Made by a program: the position numbers and the translations under genes. Shown piece by piece: positions 9,345-38,461 of a stretch of 64,000 nt of DNA (positions within the stretch are counted from its first letter, which is position 1; every line of letters begins with the position of its first letter). The stretch spans positions 124,001 through 188,000 of the forward strand of contig JACJNY010000063.1 in the NCBI GenBank assembly GCA_014695295.1, read 5' to 3'. Source of the DNA: Microcoleus sp. FACHB-61. Its GTDB lineage: Bacteria; Cyanobacteriota; Cyanobacteriia; Cyanobacteriales; Microcoleaceae. The notes beneath the pieces are model-generated. The model did not search any database. It was given only the letters and a program-made list of their open reading frames with translations, and was not told where the DNA came from.

Positions 9345-12300
9345 TCAATTTGAGGGAGCAGAAAACCAATTGATTGCTTCGAGGAGTTCTTGTTGTTCAA
9401 CTATTTCAGAAACTGACTGCAGCAAGTAGCGCTGACCTTGGCGGCTAGTAGCAAAGCTGAGTTGAGGGTAAACCGTTTGTTCTTTGTCCTCATGGCGAAC
9501 TTCGATAATAGCAGCAAACTCTTGGACAACACCTTTATAATATCGAATTGCAAATTCAAGCTGAATCTTTTGCTTGTACAGTTCGATTAATATGTGGGGG
9601 GGGACAACGTATACAATTTCCTTGAGATACCACCTAGCACCAAGCGACACCGACCACAAGTTTGCAAACCAAACGCAGAGGTGCATATAGTTATCCTCTT
9701 GGTAGTAATTCGTATGTCCGTAAATAAATGCTGAATTATGCCAAACATAGGGTGTCCAGAATTCCAATTTAGCACCATCAATGCAAACACGACTAACTTC
9801 TTGGAATAGATGTATCGGGTCAGTCAAATGTTCTAACGTATGTGATGAGTGAACATATTCAACACTGCGATCGGGAAATGGCAATGTATCAGTCTGTAGA
9901 TTAAGTACGTGGTCAACAATGCCAGGAATATAACAGTAATCTAATCCAATTGTTCCCGTTTTTTTGTTGCCGCCGCAGCCTAGATCTAATCTTAGATATT
10001 CCTGGTGATTTGTGACTGGTTCTAGTTGTGATTGACTCCAGTCCTTTTGGGTTAACTCGTTCTCAATTAACTGTGATTGTTCCTGCGACTTATCCAAATC
10101 TTTCACTATTTTAATAACCTTATCATAAATTACTTTCCAATCACAATCATAATTTTCCCAGCCCCCCCCAGTAGTGACCTCAATAATAGAATCAATAGGC
10201 ACTAATACTGGATCTACAGAGTTTTCACGAACCTCTAACCAAAAAATCAACTGCGAATAATGCCCACGATCGGAGTGGGCTACTCCAGGCTTGTTAGCGA
10301 TCCAAGTTACCAACGTTAATCCAGAACCAATAACAGCTATGTATGTATCTACCGTACCAGCCCAGACAATTGTTTCGTGGAGAGGACATTCAAGCGCATT
10401 GTATACCTTAACATTAGGAGAAATTAGAGCCTGTATTTGCTCCATATAGGGTTTCTCGGTGGAAAAACCATCAAAGACCACTGCCATACCTGGATAATCG
10501 TCAAATATTTTTGTGATGATATTTGCATATCCTTCCACTTGGGATATCCAAGCCTTATTGTGGCTGCGAAGATTAATCCATAGCAGCGGGAAATGTTTCT
10601 TAGCTGCTTCTACATTTTGCAAAAAAGACTGACTGCACTTATGGACAGCAGCGGCCTGAATTCTGGCAGCTAAATCCTCCTTGATTAAGGAGTGGGTCAC
10701 TTGAACGACGAAGTAATTATTTTCTAATATAGCTTTAAAAAATTTCTTATTGTCGGATAAGCGAACAATTTTTTCTGGCGAAATTTCTGGAAAAAGCGCA
10801 TTGAGTTCAAAATATTCATTAGCTCCTATTAATAATTTATCTATTTTCTGCAAGATGTCATTTTCATATAAATAATAAAGTCCACTAATTTGATTCCAGA
10901 AATAGTGACCCAAGTTGGAGACATTCCCGACAACAGCTACAACTTCTTTGGTTTTTTCATTTGATATGTAAGATTTGAATTCTCGCCAACAACTAACAGC
11001 ATGAGCCTTAAATGTATTAATAATATTTTCCGAACTCAGCCAGACGCTCCATTCATTAGAAAAGTTGATTACTAGCTCTAATCTAGGAAAATAAATACCT
11101 ATCTTGCCACCGCTCCAAGTCCCCACAATCAGGTAAAATATTTCGGTGCCTTGAAATTGATAAATTAATATCGGTACACTAGGATCATATTGGATATAAA
11201 ATGAACGATCGCTCCTAAGTACCATTCCTGTAAACGGGCAGACTGAATAGATATAACCTGTTTCTACTACGCTTTGCTGAAAATCGTTAGTGGCTTTAAT
11301 TAAATTCCATGTAAAATTGGATTTTTTAGTAACTTTTTTTGCTATTTTTATACCTTTAAATTCTTGAAATTGATTGATATAAATCTCTTCTAAAGCTAGA
11401 GAGTCTTGCTTGATTAACTCCAAGTTTGCTAAGGAAAAGTTTGCCTCTTCAAGAATTGTTTTTTCGGATTCATTCAAGTCAGTTAAAGATACCATTTTCA
11501 TCACGGTATATTTGGTTGTGTGAGTGAAGTATGTAGAGGCATCTTCCAGTTTAATTTCAGCTTGACCATCTATATCTGTCTCGTGCAAAGGAGCCAGTTG
11601 ATTCAAACCCTTCCAAATTTTTTCATAAATTTCTGCCTCGCTGGGTTGCTTCTGGGCCTTTTGGAAGCAGGCGAGAGCTTCATCTAACTGACCTTGTGCT
11701 GCTAAAATAATTGATAATTTATAGGATGCAGTGGGCTGGTAGGGAGCAACTTCCAAAACCTTGCGGTAGCAAGCGATCGCTTCTTCCCACCTCTCCTGTT
11801 GTTCTAAAAGCACAGCTAAACTCAAGTAAGCTTCTTCGGCTACGGGTGGGAGAGTTAAGGCATATTGGTCAGTTATTAAACCATCAATTACTGCTCCTGT
11901 TGGCGAAAATTCAACAGCACGACTGTACGCCTGATTTGCCTTCTCCCGTTGATTTTTTAAGTGCAGGATGCCACCCAAATGAAAGTAGTATAAAAAAGCT
12001 GCATTGGTGTTCGGTTTTGGTTGATAGACAAGAGTCATTTCAATACAGCTTACTGAAAATGCTGATCCGGTAGAAAAGAAACGAAATTCTGTTCTGTGAC
12101 CTTCAATAAAGTCCAAGTAAAATTCAAGAGAGGTTTGATGGCTATCAACTTGGGCTTCATATAAAACATAAGGACAAGGAGACACCACATCAAAGTTAAA
12201 ACTGCGCTCGCAGTCTTTTTCCTCAGTCATCTCTAAACTGTTCTCTGGGAAACTGAATCCAACCCTAACGCGGTATAACCCATCGGGAATGTCTATATAC

Positions 12301-30650: not shown

Positions 30651-32285
30651 CTACAAAGGAGCAAAATTCACTTTTGTTACTTCGCCCGCAAGAACATTAA
30701 CTGTTTGTTGAATTTGAGTACCGTCAACTTTCAACTGATAAGTCCCCGGAGAAAGCTCGATCGCCCCAAACCATCCTTTACCATCCGCGCGCAGTTGGCG
30801 CACCTTGCCAGCAGCATCGATCGACTGCAATGTCAAGCTCGCACCGTCGCAAGTTTGAGCGCACCGCTGCAAATTTCCGGCGATCGCACCTGTAGTCGGC
30901 CGCGACTTCCAAGGCATATCGGGAACGGCTGCTGCTGTCGCCCACACAGGCTGAGTTTCATAGGTTTTGCCCGTGGCAGCGTCAACGTATTGACTCGGCT
31001 GCGAAAGCGCGGTGTAAAACAAATCGTTGCTTTGGGGAACGTATTTCCAAGGCTGGCGGGGCAAATCACCGCTGCCGCCCGATCGCAGTTCCACATTCGT
31101 GTAGACGTTGCTGCTAGCGTAGGAATACAGCACCGTACCCGCTATGTTATTCCCTTTCGCAGAAGGCTGTTCGGCGCGACGAATCTGGTCTAGAGTGTCT
31201 TCGATGTAGTTGAGGTAATTGCCGGGGCCGATCGCAATTTGGCGGTTGTACTGGTGGTCTTTGGCGTACTCGATCCAGTTGTCATAAGCGAGTTTTTGCG
31301 ATCGTTTGTACTCGCGCTGGTAAGTCATCGGCATCGCCATGTCTACGATCCCTTCTTCCAGCCAAGCGCGCCAATCCTGCAATACTTCTTTGTAAGGCTG
31401 CGTTTGATACCAAGCTGCATCGTTTGTTGGGCCGTCTCCCCAGGCGATCGTGGCGGCGGTAATTTTAACGCGCGGTTTAATCGCAAGGCTTTCTACATAA
31501 AGCTTCCGCACTAAATTTGTCACCTGATCGCGCCGCCACTGCATCCACGCGGGATCGGTGGGTGCGGGTTTGCCCGATCGACCTGTTTGCTGATTGAAAC
31601 GGGCGATCGCAGTCGGATTGTAGCCCCAAGTCGGCCCCCCGTAGCGCACGTAATCCAACTGTACGCCGTCCACATCGTAGCGCTTCAGCAAGTCCAAATA
31701 GACGGAAACAGTATAATCTACGGCGTCTGGATGGCCGGGATCGAGATAGCCTTGGGCTTCCCCACCGTAAGTCAGCATTGCCCAATTGTCGTTTCCTGGG
31801 GCCGAAGGCCCGTGTTGTTGCCAAACGTGACCGGCGGGAAGTTTGGTTCCCGAAACCACCGGCAGCGTCACCATCCAAGCGTGTACTTCAATGCCTGCGG
31901 CGTGGGCTTTGTCAATCAAATCTTGCAGGGGATCGAAACCCGCCGGAACGTTGGGATCGAGGGTGCGGGGTTCGATCGCACTGGTGTAAAAAGCATCGCC
32001 ACGGCGGCGGACTTGGGCAACGATGGCGTTGGCATTGGCCCGCTGCGCGTCTGCGATCAATTTTGTGACTTCTTGAGGCGTTTTGAAGCCGGGGTTGAAG
32101 GCGTCAACCCAGAATGCTCGAAATTCGGCGGTTTGGGTTTGCGGGGGCATAGTTGCGTTAGCGAAGCCCTCGAAGAGGATCGCCCGGGATGGGAAGTTGG
32201 AGAACCAACCAGGAGTCAGCAGAAAACTAATTGTTAAGCCGATCAGGAACAAGCTTGACAAAAATAATGTTTTGGGTTTACGCAT
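30651..32285 (-). CDS. Secreted family 10-like glycoside hydrolase (GHL10)
   Basis: This protein has 544 residues. The N-terminus (MRKPKTLFLSSLFLIGLTIS and following) is a signal peptide or anchor. AEFRAFWVDAFNPGFKTPQE starts a TIM-barrel domain of the GHL10/DUF187 type, with ADAQRANANAIVAQVRRRGD, DGVQLDYVRYG (catalytic Asp/Glu region) and ITAATIAWGDGPTN. The ~120 C-terminal residues form a beta-rich carboxypeptidase-like or Ig-like domain (TTGAIAGNLQRCAQTCDGAS ... LSPGTYQLKVDG). Such proteins are thought to cleave peptidoglycan or exopolysaccharide outside the membrane; the substrate is unknown. It lies inside the defence island but has no clear link to it. Confidence 0.87.
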   Translation of the reverse strand: MRKPKTLFLSSLFLIGLTISFLLTPGWFSNFPSRAILFEGFANATMPPQTQTAEFRAFWVDAFNPGFKTPQEVTKLIADAQRANANAIVAQVRRRGDAFYTSAIEPRTLDPNVPAGFDPLQDLIDKAHAAGIEVHAWMVTLPVVSGTKLPAGHVWQQHGPSAPGNDNWAMLTYGGEAQGYLDPGHPDAVDYTVSVYLDLLKRYDVDGVQLDYVRYGGPTWGYNPTAIARFNQQTGRSGKPAPTDPAWMQWRRDQVTNLVRKLYVESLAIKPRVKITAATIAWGDGPTNDAAWYQTQPYKEVLQDWRAWLEEGIVDMAMPMTYQREYKRSQKLAYDNWIEYAKDHQYNRQIAIGPGNYLNYIEDTLDQIRRAEQPSAKGNNIAGTVLYSYASSNVYTNVELRSGGSGDLPRQPWKYVPQSNDLFYTALSQPSQYVDAATGKTYETQPVWATAAAVPDMPWKSRPTTGAIAGNLQRCAQTCDGASLTLQSIDAAGKVRQLRADGKGWFGAIELSPGTYQLKVDGTQIQQTVNVLAGEVTKVNFAPL

Positions 32286-32460: not shown

Positions 32461-33591
32461 ATGTACGAACGCACTGATAGTGAGATAGAAGCAATTCAAG
32501 AACTTCTTTCGCCACACTTTGGGACTGGCTTTGAGCCTGACGAAGTAGCAAATAGCGAACAGATAATAATCCAACAGGTATTGGAATACGTAGGTAGCCG
32601 ATTTACCCGGATGAAGTATATCCTCGGTCTTGCCCTTGATTTTGCGATCGTCGCACAGCGTCTATCTAATGTTGATGACTCTGCCAAAGAATTAAGAGAG
32701 CAGCTTACAATTGAAGAATTATTTAAACGTTACCAAGTTGTCACTGAACGGGGAGAACAACAGGCAAATACACTAACTTTAAAATTTGCTCAATCTACTC
32801 AAGTAGGTATCCGACGCATAGAAGAGTCAATTGTTCAATTTTTTCACAGTCTAAATCGTTCTAAATATCCCAGTGCTTATGTTTACAATACAGGTCAATG
32901 GCAAAAGTTTCAAGACCTGCTGATTCTCTGTTTTCGTCTGTCCGAGTCGGGACGCTTTCAACTCTGCCAAAAACTTATTGATTTTGGTCTTGAACGATTG
33001 CAAAAGAACATATTTGTTACTAGAGAATCGTTACGAGTTCGTTTATTTCCCGAGATAATAAACAATTACCCGCGCAGCGATCCAGATGAGAATGGGGGTT
33101 TAGTTTTTCAAGCCATTGCTTGCGGTTATTTCAAAGCCGATCGGCCTCATCTCAGCTTTGTCGTTGATAAGGTACGAACAGGTTCGTCCCGACAGCGCCG
33201 TTTTGGAGATATTGACTGTTATTACGGCCTGGATCTAGAAATATCAATAGAAGTAAAAGACTGCCACATTTCGCTTAAAAACCTCAAGCAACAATTGGGA
33301 AGTTTCCAGAAACAAGTAACAGGCAATCAAATTCTTGGCGTGGCTTTTGTACTTTCCATAAACAGCGAAGCGCGTTCTCTACTTAGCGACGACGGCATCA
33401 TTCCGTTCGCACAAGACGAGCTAATTAGATCCGTGAGGATCTGGGATTGGCAAAAGCAGGATGCTGCAGTGCATGAAATGCTTCACTACCTTGCTCACGT
33501 TGAACAGAATCCTAGTGCTGTTGCCAGGCTACTGGCATTTATCGGCGATCGAGATCCCGAACACAACTCTCTTACTTATTATCAAAGTTAA
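32461..33591 (+). CDS. Type II restriction endonuclease, PD-(D/E)XK type (SacI-like candidate)
   Basis: This 376-residue protein has an all-helical N-terminal part and a C-terminal nuclease core: RRFGDIDCYYGLDLEISIEVKDCHI supplies Asp250/Asp252 and Glu264-x-Lys266, the metal-binding D...ExK pattern (quoted here in two parts: RRFGDIDCYYG and SIEVKDCHI). It stands tail to tail with a DNA cytosine methyltransferase and overlaps it by four bases, the usual context of a restriction enzyme. Overall it recalls the SacI endonuclease family, but this assignment is from memory of the family's layout and is weak. There is no clear Shine-Dalgarno sequence; a 26-bp repeat with TTGACA lies upstream. Confidence 0.72.
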   Translation: MYERTDSEIEAIQELLSPHFGTGFEPDEVANSEQIIIQQVLEYVGSRFTRMKYILGLALDFAIVAQRLSNVDDSAKELREQLTIEELFKRYQVVTERGEQQANTLTLKFAQSTQVGIRRIEESIVQFFHSLNRSKYPSAYVYNTGQWQKFQDLLILCFRLSESGRFQLCQKLIDFGLERLQKNIFVTRESLRVRLFPEIINNYPRSDPDENGGLVFQAIACGYFKADRPHLSFVVDKVRTGSSRQRRFGDIDCYYGLDLEISIEVKDCHISLKNLKQQLGSFQKQVTGNQILGVAFVLSINSEARSLLSDDGIIPFAQDELIRSVRIWDWQKQDAAVHEMLHYLAHVEQNPSAVARLLAFIGDRDPEHNSLTYYQS

Positions 33592-34772
33592 ACTATGATT
33601 TCAAGAGCAAGCTGAATGGGAAACTTTAAGTCTGCATTGAGCGACTTTACTTTTTGCGATCTGGCTCTAAAAATTTCATCATCTGAGTGGCTTTGATAAG
33701 CCTTGACAACTTCCTTGCCTACCGCCAATCCTAGTAGTGGCGGTACGGCATTTCCGACTTGAAGGTACTGTGATGTTCTCGAACCAATAACCTCAAAATC
33801 ATCATCAAAAGATTGCAGCCTCAATCCTTCGCGGACAGTCAATCCTCGATGCTGACTAGGATGAGTGGCTCGTGCAGACGAAGGTTTTCTCATGTTAGAT
33901 GTTACAGCAATAGCTGGTTTATTACTAGCTAGTCGAGCATAGCTATTGTGAAAACCACTGGCTGGTTGAAGGCGCTCGGGAATAGACTTTCGGTTTCCAC
34001 CATCTGGGATATACTTCAGAATTTCAATTAACTTTTGTGAATGATTGGCAGCCTCGTGATGTAGCAGTATGTTGGCGGTCTTGCGCCTAGCTATTTGATA
34101 GTCAGTTTGTGGCATACTCTGGTAAGATTTACATATTTCTCCAGCATTTAATGGCGGTAGATCTGAAATTGCATCAGCTACAGTCACATAATAGTGAGAA
34201 ATTGGCACTGGAAACTCAGGCGGCAGCAATCCATCAAGCCAACCTATAAAAAAAGCACGTTTTCGCAGTTGGGGTACGCCGTAGTCAGCCGCCTTTAAAA
34301 GGCGACATTTCATGTGATAGCCGATATCAGCAAAGCTAGCGATGACTGAATCGCGCACTTTGCCTCCCTGCATTACCAGCATTCCTTCAACATTCTCGAT
34401 AATGACATAAGCAGGACGAATTTCAGCCACCAAGTCGCGAAAATTGCGCCATAAAGAATTGCGAGGATCTGTTATCTCTCGTTTGCCAACAGTGCTGAAT
34501 CCTTGGCACGGTGCTCCCCCCGTAATAATGTCGATTTCTGCTGCCGAAATTTTAAAGAATTCCTCTATTTCGGAAACGGTTGTCTGGGTTAAGTCAGATA
34601 CCAGACACGGAAGTGGAGATAGGTTGCGTTCAAAAGTTTGTTTGGCGTTTTCACAGTAATCTATGCCACCGATCGCTTGGATGCCAGCACGTTTAAAACC
34701 CAGAGTTAACCCTCCCATGCCGCAAAATAAGTCAAGGCTGCGCGGAAAACGCTTGGTTTGAGTTTTTGTCAT
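33588..34772 (-). CDS. DNA (cytosine-5-)-methyltransferase
   Basis: This 394-residue m5C methyltransferase would protect the host from the neighbouring endonuclease. It has motif I LDLFCGMGGLTLGFKRAG, motif IV TGGAPCQGFS with catalytic Cys89, motif VI VIIENVEGML, motif VIII QLRKRAFFIG, a ~100-residue target-recognition region with HHEAANHSQKLIEIL, and motifs IX-X LRLQSFDDDF and YLQVGNAVPPLL. All key residues are present, so it looks active. The start ATG at 34772 has GAGGAGG 9-15 bases upstream. A piece of another methyltransferase gene lies just beyond the ribosome-binding site. Confidence 0.95.
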   Translation of the reverse strand: MTKTQTKRFPRSLDLFCGMGGLTLGFKRAGIQAIGGIDYCENAKQTFERNLSPLPCLVSDLTQTTVSEIEEFFKISAAEIDIITGGAPCQGFSTVGKREITDPRNSLWRNFRDLVAEIRPAYVIIENVEGMLVMQGGKVRDSVIASFADIGYHMKCRLLKAADYGVPQLRKRAFFIGWLDGLLPPEFPVPISHYYVTVADAISDLPPLNAGEICKSYQSMPQTDYQIARRKTANILLHHEAANHSQKLIEILKYIPDGGNRKSIPERLQPASGFHNSYARLASNKPAIAVTSNMRKPSSARATHPSQHRGLTVREGLRLQSFDDDFEVIGSRTSQYLQVGNAVPPLLGLAVGKEVVKAYQSHSDDEIFRARSQKVKSLNADLKFPIQLALEIIV

Positions 34773-34898: not shown

Positions 34899-36968
34899 AT
34901 GATAGTACCGCACTTTCAAACGCTAGCCCTTCCGGGTAACAGCTACTCAACAGCAAGCAATTTACTCGATCGAGTAGATGGCTGGCGCCAAGAAGCAACC
35001 CGAAAGTTGCAGCAAAGCCAGAGAGGAGAAAAAGGACAATTTTTAACACCTTCCTCAGTCGCAAGTTTGATGGCGGGAATGTTTGAATTTAACTGTCCCG
35101 ATATATCGCTTTTAGATGCCGGGGCTGGTATTGGTTCCCTGTTAGCAGCAGTTGTTTGCGAGCTTTGTCAGCGCCCCAACAAACCGCGTAGCCTGCAAGT
35201 TACAGCTTATGAAATTGACCTTATTTTGATTGAATACCTCAAACAAACTTTAGAATTGTGCAGTATTGAATGTCAGCGTTTAGGGATATCTTTTACCTGT
35301 GAGGTTCGCGAAATTGATTTTATTCAAGACAGCGCCGATATGTTGCAGCCCAATCTATTTACACAACCAGTAAAACGGGAATTTACCCATGCAATTATCA
35401 ATCCTCCCTATGCCAAGATAGACGCTAAATCCCAAGCCAGAACCTTGCTGCGTTCTATAGGACTAGAAACCAGCAATCTCTACGCTGGCTTTACAGTTGC
35501 TGCTGCTCACCTGCTCAAGCCAAACGGTGAATTAGTATCGATTACTCCCCGCAGCTTTTGCAACGGTTTATACTTTCGAGATTTCCGCAAAGTATTCCTT
35601 CAAATGATGGCTTTACGCCAAGTACATATCTTTGAATCCCGACAGTTGCCATTTCGCGATGATGCGGTGCTGCAAGAAACTATTATTGTGCGCGCCACCA
35701 AACAAATAGAACAGCCAGATACTGTACTAATTACCTCAAGCAGCAGCGTGGGCGACGACCTGGTTTTGTCTCACCAACTGCCCTATACCGCCCTAATTAA
35801 TCCCCAAGATTCCGAGCAATTTATTCGGATTTTACCGGATTATGTCAGCCAGCAAGTAGTCGAGCAAATGGCTCAATTTACTTGCACATTAGAGGAACTA
35901 GGCTTAACAGTTTCTACCGGAAAAGTTGTAGATTTTCGTGTTCGCTCTGATTTGCGGCTCAAACCTGAAAACGGTACAGTTCCGCTGATTTATCCCGCAC
36001 ACTTCTCGGCTGGCGGTGTTGAATATCCCACAGCAACGAGAAAGCATCAAGCTTTAGCTGTCACGGAAAAAACTGCTGCACTCCTCGTACCTAACGAACA
36101 TTATGTTTTGAGCAAGCGCTTCTCCTCAAAGGAAGAGAAAAAGCGAATTGTTGCAGTTGTCTGGGATGCCAATAAAATTAATAGTTCTCGCGTTGGTTTT
36201 GAGAACCATTTGAATTACTTTCACCAACAGGGACGCGGATTAGACCTCACCCTGGCGCGGGGATTGGCCGTTTATCTAAATTCGAGTTTGGTAGATGCGT
36301 TTTTCCGACTGTTCAACGGACACACTCAAGTTAATGCTACGGATTTACGCAATTTGAAGTATCCTACTGTAGAGCAATTACTTTTACTTGGCGCTCAAAT
36401 AAGAGAAATATTTCCTACACAGCGGGAGATTGATGAACTTGTAGAGAGACAACTGCTGAAGGCGACCAATCCGTTAGAAAATAGCCCAATGACAATCAAG
36501 AACCGTCTTGATGAATCTCTAGAAATACTTGCAGCGCTGGGTTTTCCAAAAGGTCAGCTTAAGGAACGTTCCGCCTTAACCCTTCTGGCTTTGCTTGACC
36601 TCAAGCCAAAGGATGCTTGGGAATTGGCAAAATCTCCACTTCGGGGAATCACACCAATTATGGAATTTATGGAGCAGGAGTACAGTAAAAAATATGCACC
36701 AAATACGCGGGAAACTGTGCGTCGCCAGACTGTGCATCAGTTTCTAGATGCAGGTTTAATTGTTGTTAATCCTGACAGTCCCGAACGTCCGGTGAATAGT
36801 CCAAAAACTGCATATCAGATAGAAGAAAGTGCTTTAGAACTGCTGCGAACCTATGGCACTTATGATTGGGACAAGAATGTTCGCGCTTACCTCCTTCATT
36901 TTAACGGAGAAAAATTTTTGCAGGGTTATTCCAAAAATAGAAATATTTGTGAGTCAGAAGGCTGCTAA
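34899..36968 (+). CDS. N6-adenine DNA methyltransferase fused to a core-deleted BsuBI/PstI-type restriction enzyme
   Basis: This protein has 689 residues. The start MIVPHFQTLALPG fits; earlier codons of the open frame look non-coding. GEKGQFLTPSSVASLMAGMF and LLDAGAGIGSLLAA (motif I, ~residue 72) with IINPPYAKID (motif IV NPPY, ~166) mark an Eco57I/PstI-type m6A methyltransferase, and STGKVVDFRVRSD (~337) is its usual later motif. From ~535 the chain changes to the N-terminal helical domain of BsuBI/PstI endonucleases: LDESLEILAALGFPKGQ, RSALTLLALLDLKPKDAWEL, NTRETVRRQTVHQFLDAGLI, NPDSPERPVNSPKTAYQIEE. It then jumps to LHFNGEKFLQGY, which resembles the extreme C-terminus of those enzymes. The ~150-residue catalytic domain is absent. 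Methylation is probably intact and cleavage lost. Confidence 0.85.
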   Translation: MIVPHFQTLALPGNSYSTASNLLDRVDGWRQEATRKLQQSQRGEKGQFLTPSSVASLMAGMFEFNCPDISLLDAGAGIGSLLAAVVCELCQRPNKPRSLQVTAYEIDLILIEYLKQTLELCSIECQRLGISFTCEVREIDFIQDSADMLQPNLFTQPVKREFTHAIINPPYAKIDAKSQARTLLRSIGLETSNLYAGFTVAAAHLLKPNGELVSITPRSFCNGLYFRDFRKVFLQMMALRQVHIFESRQLPFRDDAVLQETIIVRATKQIEQPDTVLITSSSSVGDDLVLSHQLPYTALINPQDSEQFIRILPDYVSQQVVEQMAQFTCTLEELGLTVSTGKVVDFRVRSDLRLKPENGTVPLIYPAHFSAGGVEYPTATRKHQALAVTEKTAALLVPNEHYVLSKRFSSKEEKKRIVAVVWDANKINSSRVGFENHLNYFHQQGRGLDLTLARGLAVYLNSSLVDAFFRLFNGHTQVNATDLRNLKYPTVEQLLLLGAQIREIFPTQREIDELVERQLLKATNPLENSPMTIKNRLDESLEILAALGFPKGQLKERSALTLLALLDLKPKDAWELAKSPLRGITPIMEFMEQEYSKKYAPNTRETVRRQTVHQFLDAGLIVVNPDSPERPVNSPKTAYQIEESALELLRTYGTYDWDKNVRAYLLHFNGEKFLQGYSKNRNICESEGC

Positions 36969-37096: not shown

Positions 37097-38461
37097 ATGG
37101 AAAAAAAGCATAACGCTGGATTGTGGGTATCAGTATTATACTTCGCTCAAGGTCTCCCTTACACCGTCGTTAATTTAATGTCGGTGATTTTTTTGAAAGG
37201 TATGGGAACCAGCAACGAACTCATCGGATTGACAAGTCTGTTGTCTTTTCCTTGGGTTTTAAAAGGTTTGTGGGGGCCCGTCGTTGATTTGTATTCTACC
37301 AAACGCAAATGGATTTTAACAACCGAAATCATTTGTGCTTTTCTGTTTGCTTTCCTAGCTTTTGGCGTATTAACGCCGGCACCGATTATTATATCGCTTG
37401 TTATCTTTACGGCGATCGCCTTTGTGTCAGCTACTCACGACATCGCCATTGACGGATTTTATTTAAACACTCTCAATAAAGACCAGCAAGCCTTGTTTGT
37501 CGGGGTTCGCAACACCGCTTATAGAGGTGCTGTCATTGCCGGTAGCGGTGTATTGGTGTTCTTAGCCGGGAAACTGGCCGAACAGCATTTAGTCACCGGA
37601 AGTACAGGCGACACCAAAATATATCAAAACATTCCACTGTCACTTTTCGGTTCGGATTTTAGCGTGTCTGCGCTTAACTACGGATGGGCGACAGCCTTTG
37701 GCATTTGTGCGATTATGTTTGTGCTGATATATCTCTTTCAGCGGTGGTATCTTCCCTATCCTAGAAATTACGCTATGGAAGCCGACGCACCCCAACAAAC
37801 AACAAGCTTTATCGAAGCATTTAAAACTTATTTCCAGCAAGATAAAATTGGTTGGATTGTGACTTATGTCTTGATTTTTCGCTTGGGCGATGCCTTGACG
37901 TTTAAAATGGCTCCGCCATTTTTAATGGATAAAGTGGAGAAAGGAGGATTAGCAGTTTCTACATCGGACATGGGTCTGTTATCGGGTACGATCGGGGTAA
38001 TTTTTCTGTTAATAGGAGGGTTACTGGGCGGCTATTTGATTGCTAAACAAGGATTGAAAAAATGGATGTGGCCGACGGCAATTCTGCAAAATTCAACTAA
38101 CGTGCTGTATTGGCTGTTGGCCATCAATCAACCGGGGATTGAATGGGCTTATGCCGTAAATTCGATCGAGCAATTTACTTACGGACTTGGGGTAGCTGCC
38201 TATACAGTGTTCTTGATGCGGACTGTCCGCCCTGAATACGAAGCATCTCACTATGCAATTACAACTGCTTTTATGGCCGCAGGAGTGCTGATTCCGGGCG
38301 TTTTTAGCGGCTACTTGCAGGCGAACCTCGGCTATCAAAATTATTTTTTGATGAGTGCGCTGGCTGTGATTCCCGGTATGCTGACCATTTTCTTTCTGCC
38401 CCTAGAAGATGAGAAAAAATTAGCATCCATGCCCAGACCTGGACTGGACGATTTCGATTAA
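37097..38461 (+). CDS. MFS transporter, AmpG-like (PAT family)
   Basis: This 454-residue permease has about twelve hydrophobic spans. The opening YFAQGLPYTVVNLMSVIFLK, TSLLSFPWVLKGLWGPVVD and ATHDIAIDGFYLN are typical of the peptide/acetyl-CoA (PAT) group that includes AmpG, which imports muropeptides for cell-wall recycling. The short loop between spans 6 and 7 carries RWYLPYPRNYAMEADAP. The substrate in cyanobacteria is unproven. It starts at ATG 37097, 128 bases after the methyltransferase fusion, and that gap shows no gene. Confidence 0.85.
   Translation: MEKKHNAGLWVSVLYFAQGLPYTVVNLMSVIFLKGMGTSNELIGLTSLLSFPWVLKGLWGPVVDLYSTKRKWILTTEIICAFLFAFLAFGVLTPAPIIISLVIFTAIAFVSATHDIAIDGFYLNTLNKDQQALFVGVRNTAYRGAVIAGSGVLVFLAGKLAEQHLVTGSTGDTKIYQNIPLSLFGSDFSVSALNYGWATAFGICAIMFVLIYLFQRWYLPYPRNYAMEADAPQQTTSFIEAFKTYFQQDKIGWIVTYVLIFRLGDALTFKMAPPFLMDKVEKGGLAVSTSDMGLLSGTIGVIFLLIGGLLGGYLIAKQGLKKWMWPTAILQNSTNVLYWLLAINQPGIEWAYAVNSIEQFTYGLGVAAYTVFLMRTVRPEYEASHYAITTAFMAAGVLIPGVFSGYLQANLGYQNYFLMSALAVIPGMLTIFFLPLEDEKKLASMPRPGLDDFD

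Follow-up and report, generated by a model that had tools for sequence, protein, structure and literature searches.

What becomes of a restriction–modification enzyme with both activities on one chain when one of the two is lost? The question is raised by a gene in a 64,000 nucleotide stretch of DNA from Microcoleus sp. FACHB-61 (the window, from genome G000), which an initial annotation had described as an adenine methyltransferase fused to a PstI/BsuBI-type endonuclease lacking its nuclease core. The reading that we favour, with a probability of roughly 0.8, is that this is a former fusion of methyltransferase (M) and endonuclease (R) from which the nuclease core was deleted in frame, and which now encodes a solitary methyltransferase.

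The gene and its surroundings

The open reading frame lies exactly where the annotation had placed it, with an ATG at 34899 and a stop that ends at 36968. The features of the gene and its neighbours, with the evidence for each, are:

34899..36968, + strand: disarmed M–R fusion gene (M, RE_N and C-terminal tail, 689 aa); Pfam, alignment to intact sister
34899..36458, + strand: N6-adenine methyltransferase part (M), residues 1–520; Pfam, PADLOC, fold matches
35115..35129, + strand: DAGAG, residues 73–77; motif reading
35400..35411, + strand: NPPY, residues 168–171; motif reading
36501..36893, + strand: BsuBI_PstI_RE_N helix-turn-helix domain (PF17728, here RE_N), residues 535–665; Pfam, E 7.2e-49
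36893..36895, + strand: deletion scar, where 495 bp (165 codons) of the intact sister alleles are gone; DNA alignment
36895..36965, + strand: residual endonuclease C-terminal tail (HFNGEKFLQGY...); DNA alignment to intact sister
30651..32285, - strand: left flanking gene A, site anchor; found in 27 of 29 Microcoleus genomes
37097..38461, + strand: right flanking gene B, AmpG-like MFS transporter, site anchor; found in 22 of 29 genomes
32461..33591, + strand: type II endonuclease; PADLOC REase_II PDLC03399, E 1e-39, with RE_SacI below the Pfam cut-off
33588..34772, - strand: C5-cytosine methyltransferase, separate from the fusion; Pfam, PADLOC

In the N-terminal portion of the window protein Pfam recognises Eco57I and N6_Mtase, and the PADLOC MTase_II model PDLC03227 covers residues 22–520. 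We take DAGAG to be the SAM-binding motif and NPPY to be the catalytic motif of N6-adenine methyltransferases; the annotation had both the domain and the NPPY right, though it placed the latter at about residue 166 rather than at 168–171. By domains and motifs (Eco57I/N6_Mtase, SAM motif and NPPY) the protein would be classed as a PstI-type N6-adenine methyltransferase, and a passage of PMC7261158 names (D/N/S)PPY as the m6A motif. The chain then runs, as had been proposed, into the N-terminal domain of BsuBI/PstI endonucleases, and the sole strong match among solved structures is to residues 14–136 of SdaI, its N-terminal part. An AlphaFold model of the protein has a mean pLDDT of 86.4, with M and RE_N mostly above 80 and values below 50 at residues 1–17 and 673–689. 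The top fold matches of this model are M.BseCI, CamA and M.TaqI; SdaI is missing from the 50 fold matches listed, so the RE_N assignment rests on sequence.

What should follow RE_N is absent. Pfam does not find the catalytic domain (BsuBI_PstI_RE, PF06616) in the 689 residues, and the conserved HGKMPDV...EAVTSHGP block of BsuBI/PstI endonucleases is missing. The last residues had been read as the C-terminal end of the endonuclease; in a protein search the tail on its own gives no significant match to that end (phmmer, SdaI 298–322, i-Evalue 5.7e3), and it is the DNA of an intact sister at the same site that identifies it.

Gene B anchors the site in most genomes that possess it; it was not found in G014, G015 and G021, where other genes come next. 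A second restriction–modification pair lies beside the fusion (32461–34772), its genes convergent with an overlap of 4 bp, and its endonuclease is the probable partner of the C5 methyltransferase. This pair is present at the same site in G000, G028, G027, G006 and G023, and G021 keeps the C5 methyltransferase without its endonuclease. Two small adjacent ORFs (80 and 93–94 aa), which by eye resemble an antitoxin and a ParE-like toxin, recur between A and B at L174 (G013), L120 (G003), L128 (G012), L006 (G007) and L161 (G010), and G013, G008 and G020 also hold an ORF that looks ParA-like and another of 260–266 aa.

The intact sister and the lesion

A scan of genome contigs matched 498 stretches, 491 of which encode a relative, and the best 80 of the 491 were kept. 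The fusion is open in a single frame in 57 of these 80 loci, under a strict test in which one and the same frame must start before residue 60 and run past 825. An intact sister, in Microcoleus sp. FACHB-DQ6 (L005), encodes a protein of 854 residues (P0002) with 95% identity to the window protein, and both genes are flanked by A and B. P0002 carries PF06616 at 685–836 (E 1.1e-55), its residues 536–842 align to SdaI 13–321, which is the whole R part (E 2.7e-65), and its predicted model has a mean pLDDT of 83.7. PF17728 and PF06616 are both found by Pfam in P0002 and in another intact relative, P0003; these two thus have, on one chain, a methyltransferase together with a complete nuclease domain, as type IIC enzymes do, but the window protein does not. 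The annotation had named homologues of the same length with a different nuclease as the finding that would speak against it; instead, full-length relatives carry the ordinary BsuBI/PstI nuclease (two of them by Pfam).

When the window is aligned to the intact sister at the DNA level, both flanks match, 495 bp are gone and the frame is kept, bearing out the proposal of an in-frame deletion in an M–R fusion ancestor. The deleted stretch corresponds to P0002 residues ~666–830, which is nearly all of PF06616 including the HGKMPDV and EAVTSHGP blocks that presumably form the PD-(D/E)XK active site; the catalytic part is absent as claimed, and its size is 165 residues rather than about 150. In the intact allele of G013 the breakpoints fall at short similar stretches, ACCTCG and ACCTAG. 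The ancestor would then have been a single-chain type II enzyme with an N-terminal adenine methyltransferase and a complete C-terminal endonuclease of the BsuBI/PstI/SdaI type, from which a 495-bp deletion between these stretches would have taken out 165 codons in frame, leaving the methyltransferase, the DNA-binding domain of the endonuclease and its last ~24 residues. As a type II enzyme the fused parent is already catalogued, since P0002 matches the 840-position PADLOC MTase_II model of the whole M–R fusion (PDLC03359) over 10–839; the window protein matches it over 10–676, with the nuclease core missing.

The scar occurs at the same place in 7 of 29 Microcoleus genomes. At the join the base is C in G000, G028 and G003 and G in G025, G016, G006 and G023, and the bases nearby vary by substitutions among the seven. 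We considered independent recurrence of the same deletion, which is unlikely given that both ends are identical in place in seven genomes and that the match between the breakpoints is short and imperfect. A separate deletion of 488 bp, with other endpoints, is found in G007. That the junction is an artefact of assembly or annotation is hardly credible, as it is seen in seven genome assemblies and, in G028, within a single contig.

A nuclease that had merely moved elsewhere could in principle act in trans, and plasmid relatives of the system, being mostly annotated as two genes, make a separate R possible. The window's genome (99.68% complete), however, has no match to PF06616 and one match to PF17728, namely this gene, and we regard such relocation as remote in the extreme. 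A homologous trans nuclease is refuted within the assembly, and a non-homologous cognate R could still be encoded; as regards homologous R, no cognate endonuclease is found in the genome and the methyltransferase is solitary. PF06616 was likewise not found in the other scar genomes that retain M (G003, G016, G025 and G028; G025 is 90% complete), and it was matched in 6 of the 17 genomes searched (G011, G012, G013, G020, G023 and G027). The scar-only genome G023 has a distant two-gene PstI-type system elsewhere (L098 and L100, contig C53), with M 36% and R 47% identical. At the level of the sequence, then, the window gene has lost its nuclease core, and the domain was not found anywhere else in the genome.

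Allele states in the genus

We scored the state of the A–B site in 29 Microcoleus genomes. The gene has its full length in three (G013, G027 and G011, though G011 stops at codon 853 of 854), and in five the scar is present and both M and RE_N stay open (G000, G028, G003, G025 and G016, where a stop follows shortly past the scar). The scar alone, with M gone, is found in two (G006 and G023). M is open and R was lost by other routes in four (G007, G014, G015 and G017, which has stops at 525 and 527 followed by a gene that looks TnpB-like), M is broken near codon 451 in one (G021), and R fragments alone are left in two (G012 and G020). A contiguous A–B site without any protein-level match is seen in seven (G002, G004, G008, G010, G019, G024 and G026); most of these retain short DNA matches to the intact region, and in G008 and G010 other ORFs are in place. 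G001 is cut by a contig end, and 4 of the 29 (G005, G009, G018 and G022) are beyond judging. Domestication is thus not permanent, as two scar genomes have no methyltransferase at the site.

The R fragments include open frames for the nuclease domain only (PF06616), of 211 aa in G020 (L127, 2944–3528) and 159 aa in G012 (L128, 7219–7680), the latter without the first 16 positions of the profile. These are presumably inert for want of a DNA-binding part, and a search of both genomes gave no methyltransferase match. TnpB-like proteins, judged by eye, lie at or just past the break point of the endonuclease at L123 (G017) and L052.

Lesions in searches of the genus and family, with events placed by hand, lie beyond M in seven cases (the scar, G007, G014, G015, G017, G050 and G053) and within it in two (G021 and G044; binomial p 0.02), a count that leaves out the contig-cut G001 and three genomes in which it is not evident what was lost first (G012, G020 and G046). 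Adding 12 further loci, 11 with lesions beyond M (L019, L020, L036, L040, L049, L052, L059, L060, L061, L066 and L067) and one within (L081), brings this to 18 of 21 (p 1e-5), where the 80 loci were chosen by a similarity that favours M, frameshifts in MAGs may be errors, and G014 and G015 are perhaps not independent. The 12 are what is left of 23 non-intact loci after setting aside five from Microcoleus and six whose only stops lie close to an end (L042, L047, L057, L063, L068 and L073). These counts hint, if weakly, that lesions favour the region beyond M.

The trees built from M, from RE_N and from the flanks conflict with one another. We looked for monophyly of the scar in the methyltransferase trees and did not see it, and we read the disagreement as recombination. 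The clearest example is G016, whose gene A and M group with G014/G015 and whose RE_N (at low support) and gene B cluster with the clade of the window. Its identity to the window is 76–91% over roughly the first 1350 bp of the gene and then 90–99% through gene B, with the exception of 83% over 60 bp beside the scar; to G014 it is 89–99% in M up to about 1500 bp. The mosaic thus has the disarmed end joined to another M, and, from this together with the conflict among trees, the scar end would have moved between lineages by homologous recombination. This fits the gene flow described for Microcoleus, where lineages have a mean genome fraction under gene flow of 15 to 53.2% in the figures drawn from PMC10923798.

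Armed and disarmed alleles might also replace one another. In the left flank the intact G027 has 9 differences in 435 positions to the scarred G000 and 15 in 443 to the intact G013, and over the first 607 bp of B it differs from them by 18 and 43; in the 67 positions of the tail it differs from G013 by 3 and from G000 by 7, a nearness to G013 that could come from tail drift specific to the scar. On the gene A tree an ancestral scar needs two changes (the re-arming of G013 and G027) and an ancestral intact allele four, in a hand count over six close-clade genomes with supports of 0.59–0.98 where gene A may be recombinant itself. That armed and disarmed alleles of one M–R fusion are exchanged within Microcoleus by homologous recombination is a tentative idea, and we lean against it. 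If it is true and the disarmed allele still methylates, its carrier would be already protected and could be re-armed in one safe step of allelic exchange.

The methyltransferase that remains

Private substitutions were counted in a close clade of two intact (G013 and G027) and four scar genomes (G000, G028, G003 and G025). In M the scar carriers have 62 synonymous and 45 replacement changes, where neutrality gives 2.81 replacements per synonymous change (p 5e-12) and part of the substitutions may be older than the deletion or have been imported. The corresponding counts for the intact pair are 17 and 8, a ratio not detectably different from that of the scar carriers (Fisher 0.50). Two replacements at N-terminal columns of poor coverage and two codons counted twice were dropped; the other 41 of the 45 replacements fall at columns with a mean identity of 0.506, compared to 0.697 for the region, with 0 of 20,000 draws as low. 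Replacements in RE_N (10 of the 12 beyond M, dropping one change outside the domain and one double-counted codon) fall at a mean of 0.80 compared to 0.78 (p 0.6). M thus appears to be held, while the changes in RE_N appear to ignore conservation. Pairwise NG86 ratios in M, which are 0.15–0.23 among G000, G028, G003 and G025 and 0.13 for G013/G027, were set aside as a means of separating the two states, as they do not distinguish them given recombination.

The gene could instead be a pseudogene on its way out, with M inactive yet still open. The locus is often lost, as seen in the scar-only (G006 and G023) and fragment-only (G012 and G020) genomes and the seven gene-less contiguous sites, and G016 has both a stop soon after the scar and the replacement F220C. 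This change is also present in G025 and G015, at a column where 56 of 56 relatives have F, and G003 has L331I at a column invariant in the other aligned sequences; F220C (in G025 and G016) and L331I may weaken M in those genomes. M nevertheless has an open frame in every one of the five scar genomes that still have it, as well as in G007, G014, G015 and G017 (four genomes without PF06616), its replacements spare conserved columns, and the window keeps all 83 columns of M that are invariant in a 35-sequence alignment in which it is itself one row. We therefore think a decaying pseudogene unlikely.

It is less likely still that the retained DNA-binding domain has gained a use, for instance in regulation or in contributing to the specificity of M. 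The in-frame deletion does leave RE_N well predicted, truncations at L020, L036, L052 and L060 leave M with all or most of it, and private changes in RE_N of scar carriers (18:12) are below neutral (p 8e-5), which suggests constraint for at least part of the time. However, RE_N columns with an identity of 0.96 or more are hit by a replacement in three of the four scar carriers (N555K, Q614L and R630L); the window is one of the three, its N555K lying at a position occupied by N in 54 of 56 intact relatives. G028 has A556P at a column of 0.91 identity where its clade already differed; both A556P and W582L lie at positions where the clade had already departed from all 56 relatives. G007, G014, G015 and G017, moreover, lost RE_N and kept M open. 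The endonuclease remnant thus appears to be drifting, and we infer that the window protein neither cuts nor needs it. Under the favoured reading of a solitary methyltransferase left by the deletion, the enzyme is most likely still active, judging by its open frame, motifs, predicted fold and constraint.

Going by its family, the target is presumably a PstI-like site. There are 7 CTGCAG sites in the window (at 9417, 21712, 22083, 33464, 43047, 50351 and 59956) compared to 24.5 expected; the annotation had noted that such sites persist, near 9416, 22084 and 33466. In 400 kb of the intact G027 (L176–L195) there are 61 compared to 152 expected, and in 400 kb of the scarred G028 (L196–L215) 43 compared to 146. 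We rejected avoidance of CTGCAG as a readout of specificity, as counts are low in both states alike and do not discriminate between them. The lack, complete or nearly so, of several other palindromic hexamers is far stronger than this deficit: CAGCTG, TTCGAA and GTCGAC each occur 0 times in the 400 kb of G027 (88, 78 and 57 expected), CAGCTG and TTCGAA 0 times in those of G028, and CAGCTG 0 times in the window.

Several known systems are comparable in part. CamA of Clostridioides difficile, a solitary methyltransferase, has a similar predicted fold (E 1e-16, at 12–13% identity), and we know of no endonuclease remnant in it. SdaI (PDB ID: 2ixs) matches the R part of the intact sister in full length, and the window retains the match to its N-terminal domain but has the catalytic domain deleted. 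Two-gene BsuBI/PstI-type systems on plasmids (161 records matched, e.g. NZ_MF344579.1) have a homologous Eco57I-type M and a BsuBI/PstI R, with 45–48% identity among the 30 of 161 matches listed; they differ in that R is present, and two features are named in 29 of those 30. In the one plasmid record examined M precedes R in adjacent genes that overlap by 4 bp. RM.Eco29kI likewise has R and M in one chain, as an artificial fusion modelling the evolution of type IIC enzymes, in the account excerpted from PMC3039593; that construct is laboratory-made, with R first, M last and a GIY-YIG nuclease, whereas the window has a natural fusion with M first whose R was then lost. The excerpted text of PMC4081073 states that most type IIC enzymes have the reverse of the M-first, R-last order.

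Solitary methyltransferases from degraded systems are already known (in the relevant parts of PMC6471742 and PMC7261158). The passages of PMC7261158 on Bacillus subtilis DnmA, a homologue of MmeI, present an m6A methyltransferase related to a bifunctional enzyme with the nuclease motif missing; it is of another family, the nuclease motif of MmeI is N-terminal, and these passages describe it without an intact sister allele at the same site. In orphan methyltransferases beside degraded endonucleases (Seshasayee et al., as cited in the consulted part of PMC6471742) R was likewise lost and M kept; in the window a single fused chain carries the lesion within it, and close relatives still show the before-state. 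The same part of PMC6471742, referring to a study of 43 pangenomes, calls the transition from restriction–modification system to solitary methyltransferase infrequent. A description of this locus was not found among the papers listed in literature searches on PstI/BsuBI fusions, fused bifunctional enzymes, the SdaI structure, orphan methyltransferases and solitary methyltransferase remnants, CTGCAG methylomes and palindrome avoidance in cyanobacteria, and Microcoleus restriction–modification.

The origin of a solitary methyltransferase is often deduced from orphan genes near wreckage. What is unusual here is a clean in-frame deletion of the core in a fusion that begins with M, together with a single address at which intact, scarred, scar-only and gene-less alleles all occur, so that the before-state, the exact lesion, later stages of decay and gene-less sites can all be seen at one chromosomal position in one genus. 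In an M-first chain a lesion that breaks the frame in M should remove R too, and retention of M would thus reflect selection rather than escape from self-cutting, a question that the M-first order makes testable in cultured strains.
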